Source: Brachyspira sp. SAP_772 (lineage in GTDB: Bacteria > Spirochaetota > Brachyspiria > Brachyspirales > Brachyspiraceae). From it: DNA of 64,000 nt. A program made the translations under genes and the position numbers. Position 1 is the stretch's first letter, and the number at the start of each line of letters is the position of its first letter. Location of the stretch: positions 1,072,586-1,136,585 of the forward strand of contig NZ_VYIX01000001.1 in the NCBI RefSeq assembly GCF_009755885.1, read 5' to 3'. This document shows positions 61,487-62,814 of this stretch, one piece after another. The notes beneath the pieces were generated by a model. It was not told the origin of the DNA and did no database searches. It saw only the letters and a list, made by a program, of their open reading frames with translations.

Positions 61487-61514
61487 TTGACTTATTAATA
61501 TTTTATTATATAAT
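61487..61514 (+). promoter_or_regulatory. Promoter of the repeat-containing leader
   Basis: TTGACT (61487-61492), 16-base spacer, TATAAT (61509-61514); 8 bases to an ATG at 61523. Between the pgk terminator and the glycosyltransferase. Region 61298-61486 is AT-rich and holds nothing else I can name. Confidence 0.7.
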
Positions 61515-61522
61515 ATGCAAAC

Positions 61523-61666
61523 ATGATTTATAATTTCATAAAAATTAATATGCTTGTACCAAGCAAGCAAGCAAGCAAGCAAGCAAGCAAGCAAGCAAGC
61601 AAGCAAGCAAGCAAGCAAGCAAATAAATTTAGTTTTGCAATTCAAGGCTATCTAGTAATTTACTAG
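61523..61666 (+). CDS. Candidate leaderless leader peptide containing the AAGC repeat
   Basis: 47 codons: MIYNFIKINMLVPS, then five KQAS-like units from the repeat, then NKFSFAIQGYLVIY and stop TAG at 61664-61666. The ATG lies 8 bases after a consensus -10 and has no binding site. The stop codon falls in the descending arm of the terminator hairpin at 61644-61677, so a ribosome finishing the ORF would disrupt the hairpin. Whether it is translated is unproven. Confidence 0.4.
   Translation: MIYNFIKINMLVPSKQASKQASKQASKQASKQANKFSFAIQGYLVIY
61561..61622 (+). repeat. Tetranucleotide microsatellite (AAGC)15
   Basis: Fifteen exact AAGC units (60 bases) plus AA. Copy number changes by slippage would shift any reading frame crossing it by one base per unit. 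It lies 80 bases upstream of the glycosyltransferase start. Confidence 0.98.
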
Positions 61667-61677
61667 GTAGCCTTTTT
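61644..61677 (+). terminator. Strong terminator or attenuator before the glycosyltransferase
   Basis: 61644-61657 pairs with 61661-61674 (14 pairs including one G-U, loop ATT), then TTTTTG. It lies between the leader promoter and the glycosyltransferase, so full-length transcripts must read through it. Confidence 0.85.
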
Positions 61678-61701
61678 GTGTTTAAACTATAGGGATTTTT
61701 T

Positions 61702-62814
61702 ATGCAGGAAAAGTTTGATATATGTTTTTTATGTAATGGACATAATTATGCTATAAATTTAGGTATAACAATAGTATCATTATTGGTAAACTCTGATGAA
61801 TATGATAATTTTTATTTTCATGTACTTACTAGTGATATGACAGAAGAAGACAGGAAGAAATTAATATTATTAAAAGAAATAAAAGATTTTGACATAAAAT
61901 TTTATGATATAGATGACAAAATTATTGATAAGTATAAAAAATTAGAAAAAGGGAAAAATCCTGCTTGGTGGGGATATCATGTTTTATTGAAACTAGAAGT
62001 TCCCAATATACTTAAAGATTTAGATAAAGTATTATTTTTAGATATTGATCTTATTATATTGAAAAGTTTGAAAGAAATATTTAATGAAAATATAGATGAT
62101 TACTGTTTATTAACATGTTATTTGGAGGATTCCATATATTTTATGAATAACGATAACTATGAGGTATATTCCAAAATATACTCTGATTCTGTTGCTAGGC
62201 GTCTTAAAGTAGGTAAAAAACTATTAGATTGGATTCCTGGCGGATTTATGTATCTGAATTTGAAAAAATTAAGAGAAATGTATGATGAAGAAAAAATAAT
62301 TAATTATATTTCATATCTAATTGATAATGGAACAGCACCTCTTGAAGAGAGAATCATTAACCATTTTCTTAATAAAGATCGTTATATAAAAAGATTTGGT
62401 CCTTGTTATCATAGAAATGATGGAATATGGTTGGATGATAAATATATAGAAGATATGTATATAGCACATTGTACATGCGGTAAAATTTTTAGCACAGAAA
62501 GTCACTGGATACCTAAATATAAAAATAAAGTTTTGCATCTTGGATGGAAGTATTTAACTATGACTCAGTGGTTTAAGGAAGATCCTATTTATTTTTTAGA
62601 GAATTATTCAAAATATAATACCCATTTTATAAGTAATGAATTAGCCGATATAAAAAACAAAACTAGTGAAGAAAAATTAAAGAAATTAAATGAAATTAAT
62701 AAGGCTAATGAAGAAAAATTAATTAAAGTAATTAATAAGATAGTTTGGTTTATACCTATAAGAAATATTAGGAATAACGTTAGGAACAAAATGAAAGCTT
62801 ATTTTAATATTTAA
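61702..62814 (+). CDS. Glycosyltransferase family 8
   Basis: 370 residues. N-terminal FDICFLCNGHNYAINLGITIVSLL, metal/nucleotide DxD in KVLFLDIDLIIL, mid-protein WIPGGFMYLNLKKL, and LHLGWKYLT (HxGxxKpW-like). A short basic helical tail follows. GT8 enzymes add glucose or galactose to LOS core. AGGGA 6 bases before the ATG. Expression may depend on the leader upstream, making this a candidate phase-variable LOS gene. Confidence 0.9.
   Translation: MQEKFDICFLCNGHNYAINLGITIVSLLVNSDEYDNFYFHVLTSDMTEEDRKKLILLKEIKDFDIKFYDIDDKIIDKYKKLEKGKNPAWWGYHVLLKLEVPNILKDLDKVLFLDIDLIILKSLKEIFNENIDDYCLLTCYLEDSIYFMNNDNYEVYSKIYSDSVARRLKVGKKLLDWIPGGFMYLNLKKLREMYDEEKIINYISYLIDNGTAPLEERIINHFLNKDRYIKRFGPCYHRNDGIWLDDKYIEDMYIAHCTCGKIFSTESHWIPKYKNKVLHLGWKYLTMTQWFKEDPIYFLENYSKYNTHFISNELADIKNKTSEEKLKKLNEINKANEEKLIKVINKIVWFIPIRNIRNNVRNKMKAYFNI

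Follow-up and report, generated by a model that had tools for sequence, protein, structure and literature searches.

Can a tandem repeat that lies ahead of an intact glycosyltransferase gene switch this gene on and off? This question is raised by a locus near the end of the window, i.e., the whole stretch of 64,000 nucleotides from Brachyspira sp. SAP_772 that was analyzed. An initial annotation, made from the letters alone, had described a promoter, an ATG codon 8 nt behind its −10 box, an AAGC repeat, a terminator, and a glycosyltransferase gene in this order, and had proposed that they form a phase-variable transcription attenuator. Our analysis recovered each of these elements at the same positions. 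Among the promoter-like sites of this region, a sigma70-type sequence on the plus strand scores best (61487..61514; TTGACT and TATAAT with a spacing of 16 nt, 11/12 matches). Based on the usual distance between −10 and +1, transcription is predicted to start at about position 61521. The exact TATAAT ends 8 nt before the ATG at 61523. This codon coincides with the expected transcription start or lies only a few bases from it, which would make the leader ORF close to leaderless, a point absent from the initial annotation; it is not preceded by a Shine-Dalgarno sequence. With the present 15 repeat units, the leader ORF (61523..61666, plus strand) encodes 47 amino acids of the composition MIYNFIKINMLVP-(SKQA)n-NKFSFAIQGYLVIY.

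The repeat itself, (CAAG)15.75 (61560..61622, plus strand), is a tandem repeat of 15.8 copies with a 100% match. It encodes SKQA in all three frames and contains a stop codon in none of them. According to a genome-wide check, it is the sole AAGC tract of its genome. Its unit length is not divisible by three, and it is located inside a short ORF just behind a promoter. Since the repeat begins 46 nt downstream of the −10 box, and thus neither between nor upstream of the promoter boxes, a switch based on changes in promoter spacing was discarded.

Downstream of the repeat, an intrinsic terminator is predicted from the sequence (61644..61678, plus strand), consisting of a 14-bp stem with a 3-nt loop (61644-61674) and a subsequent T-rich tail. 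The hairpin has a folding energy of −18.6 kcal/mol (region z = −5.2) and is the one dominant hairpin in the fold. A search against Rfam returned only chance-level matches far below the gathering scores. Taken together, the repeat and the hairpin of the window are far beyond chance. The positions of the leader stop codons agree with the initial annotation for all three repeat numbers. With 15 units, the leader ends at a TAG within the 3′ arm of the hairpin (61664..61666, plus strand), and with 14 units at a TAG within the 5′ arm (61653..61655, plus strand). With 16 units, it ends at a TAA clear of the structure (61624..61626, plus strand), 17 nt before the hairpin. Shuffling the 21 nt ahead of the hairpin yields such a three-frame layout in 22% of cases (P = 0.22), and the layout was therefore rejected as stand-alone evidence.

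With good confidence, we interpret the window locus as a transcription attenuator that is phase-variable through strand slippage. Transcription would begin at or just before the leader ATG, and the AAGC tract would be translated by ribosomes that have loaded on the near-leaderless 5′ end. At both the present 15 units and at 14, the leading ribosome would enter the hairpin and block the terminator, so that the glycosyltransferase gene is transcribed. With 16 units, the ribosome would halt 17 nt short of the hairpin, the terminator would form, and expression would fall. Replication slippage in the tract would flip cells between these states, and the surface glycan would vary as a result. The original three-state reading is kept for 15 units (predicted ON) and 16 units (predicted OFF), but by the rule derived from the pil1 locus discussed below, 14 units with the stop in the rising arm would probably be ON, too. 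Probably only 16 units (and likewise 19, 13, and so on) would be OFF.

The gene behind the terminator (61702..62814, plus strand) encodes an intact family 8 glycosyltransferase (GT8) of 370 amino acids (Pfam Glyco_transf_8, E 3.9e-17). By direct reading, AGGGA (61691..61695, plus strand) is its ribosome-binding site. The GT8 frame is closed upstream by a TAG (61690-61692), which rules out a coding-sequence tetranucleotide contingency gene of the lic type. The enzyme had initially been called an LOS glycosyltransferase. The Pfam match bears out the second half of this name, while we infer a role in LOS or surface glycan synthesis. A separate promoter downstream of 61677 had been named as an argument against attenuation; no promoter-like site was found on the plus strand between 61517 and 61702, and thus none for GT8 after the hairpin. 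Relatives of GT8 were detected neither in a protein scan of the genome contigs nor by tblastn against plasmids, where a different query matched only a distant Streptomyces radical SAM protein. Likewise, there was no close orthologue among the species representatives, with one genome per species. A motif resembling IVW[FW]IP[FI]KxxR is located at the C-terminus of GT8 (about 62735-62790). Such a motif is also found in the proteins behind L129, L133, L134, and L195-L206 and is common to many of the phase-variable glycan enzymes; in others than GT8, it is located near the N-terminus.

Promoter, leader, and glycosyltransferase gene together form a cassette of ~1.67 kb (about 61300..62974) that is absent from the close relative G013 (L011). 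There, pgk is joined directly to the next gene with 20 nt in between, and each of the two flanks shows ~94% identity. Neither a transposase nor end repeats were noticed. The cassette was presumably gained by recombination, but could instead have been lost from G013. The intergenic DNA behind pgk itself forms tandem repeats with units of ~130 nt in at least one other species (L023, 2787-3167).

Sister loci were collected by the repeat alone across 26 genomes of the genus. AAGC tracts are present in 10/26 genomes, CAAGT tracts in seven, and TGAAC/GTTCA tracts in eight. Altogether, the Brachyspira genomes contain dozens of such tracts (AAGC, CAAGT, GTTCA, ACAG), mostly ahead of glycan-modifying genes. 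The usual order is a −10 box, an ATG, a short ORF running into the repeat, a spacer of usually 50-180 nt, and the gene. An exact TATAAT 5-9 nt before an ATG that is open into the repeat was found for 29 of 42 tracts, compared to 0.84 expected from shuffles, although many sister loci are homologous and such counts are therefore not independent. The same spacing occurs in 17 of 1121 ordinary long ORFs of the window's genome. Combined with the usual −10 to +1 distance, it places the start at or near the ATG, and the sister leaders would thus be near-leaderless, too. A Shine-Dalgarno-like motif is present in few of them. The tracts L054, L056, L214, L215, L216, and L235 deviate from the plain leader pattern.

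This recurrence bears on another alternative, a neutral microsatellite beside an ordinary terminator, with the glycosyltransferase gene being expressed from an unseen promoter. Promoter-like consensus sites are indeed common in this AT-rich DNA (12 found versus 17.4 expected, i.e., not rarer than chance). But the order of promoter, ATG, and repeat is found at many loci before glycan genes, and we consider a neutral tract very unlikely.

The 21 proteins behind tracts that were searched belong mostly to GT8, GT2/CgtA, GT11, FkbM, or other methyltransferases, a gene set that fits surface glycan variation. Differences in repeat number are also found between near-identical relatives. L194 and L199, which come from two species, are set apart by exactly one 5-nt unit, and the 111 nt of DNA that follow contain a single mismatch. 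For the similar leaders L204/L206 and L211/L213, opposite states are predicted. L135 (3706-3851) is a composite tract of (AAGC)18.5 followed by (GGCA)18, and its orthologue L149 consists of AAGC only; apparently, a point change in the unit spread through half of the array.

We then analyzed how far the leader frames extend beyond the repeat. A frame that ends no more than 15 nt behind the repeat was found in 34 of 35 spacers (29.4 in shuffles). In 30/35, another frame is open towards the gene for 80% or more of the spacer length, compared to 11.2 in shuffles (maximum 20 in 1000). Many of these open frames extend to the start of the gene or slightly beyond it, and in three cases, L140 and both L141 loci, stop and start codons overlap as ATGA. 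A strong terminator separates repeat and gene in 7/35 spacers, compared to none in the shuffles. Most sister loci without a strong terminator look translationally coupled, and attenuation is therefore not the only use of near-leaderless repeat leaders. At the window locus, too, frame-dependent polarity or translational coupling might operate in place of intrinsic termination: the tract would set the reach of leader translation, and untranslated RNA would be exposed to Rho or the gene start would remain unread. The predominance of open frames at loci lacking a terminator speaks for this possibility. But the longest leader frame of the window ends 38 nt before the GT8 start, AGGGA provides the gene with a ribosome-binding site of its own, and a strong hairpin followed by a T-rich tail is present. 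For this locus, we regard coupling or polarity as rather unlikely.

Some of the open frames raise the question whether the leader peptide itself is the product, i.e., a small phase-variable peptide, with the terminator just separating an independently expressed gene. Hydrophobic tails of the type ILKKTFYI[YH]LFSLIG are common to L140, L141, and L195. But the conservation of these tails is not concentrated at silent codon positions; changes occur at all codon positions, and a protein-coding signal was thus not supported. Moreover, the tails of the window leader and of L132 do not contain such a sequence, and the window GT8 lacks a promoter-like site after the hairpin. A peptide product seems highly improbable.

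The attenuator interpretation can be compared more directly at loci that carry a terminator. At seven loci from Brachyspira and seven from Bacillota MAGs, one frame extends as far as the hairpin and another ends 15 nt or more ahead of it. This applies to 14/14 cases, compared to 8.1 expected; the test is modest, and L135 and L149 are orthologues. The closest counterpart of the window is L132, which is found in another species ahead of a different gene, encoding a protein of 372 amino acids with a signal-like N-terminus and no Pfam match. Its stop codons are located at +1, +30, and +44 after the repeat and its hairpin at 23-53. On the same scale, the stops of the window are at +1, +30, and +41 and its hairpin at 21-52. 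Since the positions match although the hairpin sequences differ, this comparison favours a joint function of hairpin and frame.

A scan of the window's own genome for other repeats, covering about 2 of 3.0 Mb, revealed additional candidate switches, all on the minus strand. L293 (14611-14728 of G000:C1) is a heptanucleotide tract of 16.9 units before a lipoprotein-like gene, with a near-leaderless ATG 23 nt upstream of the tract. L307 (16924-16981 of G000:C3), an AGACC tract, occupies the 3′ end of an ORF. Its frames stop at +2, +9, and +79; the third of these stops is located within a terminator (56-85) that precedes a GT2-like gene. L280 (7656-7698 of G000:C1) is also an AGACC tract at an ORF 3′ end, and its three frames stop at +2, at +9, or inside the terminator (+85). 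Judged from their stop codons, L307 and likewise L280 would be operon-internal versions of the same switch logic.

Outside the genus, a pattern scan of GTDB genomes found the order of −10 box, ATG, and AAGC repeat in Clostridia, other Bacillota, Christensenellaceae, and spirochaete MAGs; as both the −10 box and the ATG were part of the search pattern, the scan carries no information on frequency. Seven loci (L148, L162, L164, L168, L170, L175, and L181) show a terminator together with a pil1-like frame arrangement, and five of these seven Bacillota loci precede genes with lipoprotein- or secretion-like N-termini. Other loci outside the genus, such as L146 and L157, resemble coding repeats ahead of a signal peptide. 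In MAGs labelled Clostridia and Prevotella (L146, L152, L156-L158, L160, L167, and L178), several near-leaderless ORFs are present each, and the AAGC repeat precedes a signal-peptide-like segment. These are probable coding contingency genes for secreted proteins.

On balance, we lean towards the view that near-leaderless, repeat-bearing leader ORFs represent a general switch module across Brachyspira that is independently found in gut Bacillota. It would occur in three forms, in which the leader runs into a terminator, is coupled to the start of the downstream gene, or occupies the 3′ end of a preceding gene in the operon, and would set whole repertoires of surface glycan and lipoprotein genes on or off. 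Intestinal spirochaetes would thereby gain a predictable many-locus switchboard for surface sugars. In the open-access literature searched, we found no account of repeat-based phase variation in Brachyspira. The ON/OFF state would be readable from the number of repeat units in available genomes, which opens antigenic variation in Brachyspira to direct tests.

How does the window locus relate to known systems? In the translation-coupled attenuators of E. coli pyrBI and trp, a leader ribosome blocks an intrinsic terminator in response to metabolite supply. The window likewise sets a leader ribosome against a terminator, but the signal would be the repeat number. In the LOS contingency loci of Haemophilus influenzae, the repeat is reportedly located in the coding frame of the enzyme, in contrast to the window, where the enzyme frame is intact and closed by the upstream TAG. 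The repeats in these LOS genes are tetranucleotides (PMC2651432), and both systems share control of glycosyltransferase expression by tetranucleotide slippage, which for the window is predicted.

The closest relative is the pil1 locus of Streptococcus gallolyticus, where GCAGA repeats in a leader ORF determine if ribosomes reach a premature terminator (PMC3894217). High expression results from leaders that end 4 nt ahead of the hairpin or within it, low expression from those that end at least 28 nt ahead of it, and both deletion of the hairpin and mutation of the start codon behaved as predicted (PMC3894217). The initial annotation knew of no described example of this design, but pil1 and pil3 already use it (PMC3894217). 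Its attenuator proposal thus gains a proven precedent, in addition to the recurrent anatomy in Brachyspira and Bacillota, and loses its novelty as well as its reading of 14 units. Common to pil1/pil3 and the window are a repeat with a non-triplet unit in a leader ORF behind a promoter, a premature intrinsic terminator (−18.7 kcal/mol for pil1, −18.6 kcal/mol for the window), and a frame that sets the leader end before or within the hairpin. The streptococcal loci have GCAGA pentamers and a Shine-Dalgarno leader ahead of a pilus operon in a Firmicute, whereas the window has AAGC tetramers and a near-leaderless ORF ahead of a glycosyltransferase gene in a spirochaete. Only 17 nt separate the 16-unit stop from the hairpin, compared to at least 28 nt in pil1 isolates that are OFF, and the OFF state of the window locus may therefore be leaky. 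Most likely, the window locus is a near-leaderless spirochaetal variant of a described design. A mechanism described for two pilus loci in a single Streptococcus thus appears to be recurrent, and what is new here is the near-leaderless form, its recurrence across Brachyspira and Bacillota MAGs, and the coupled and operon-internal versions.
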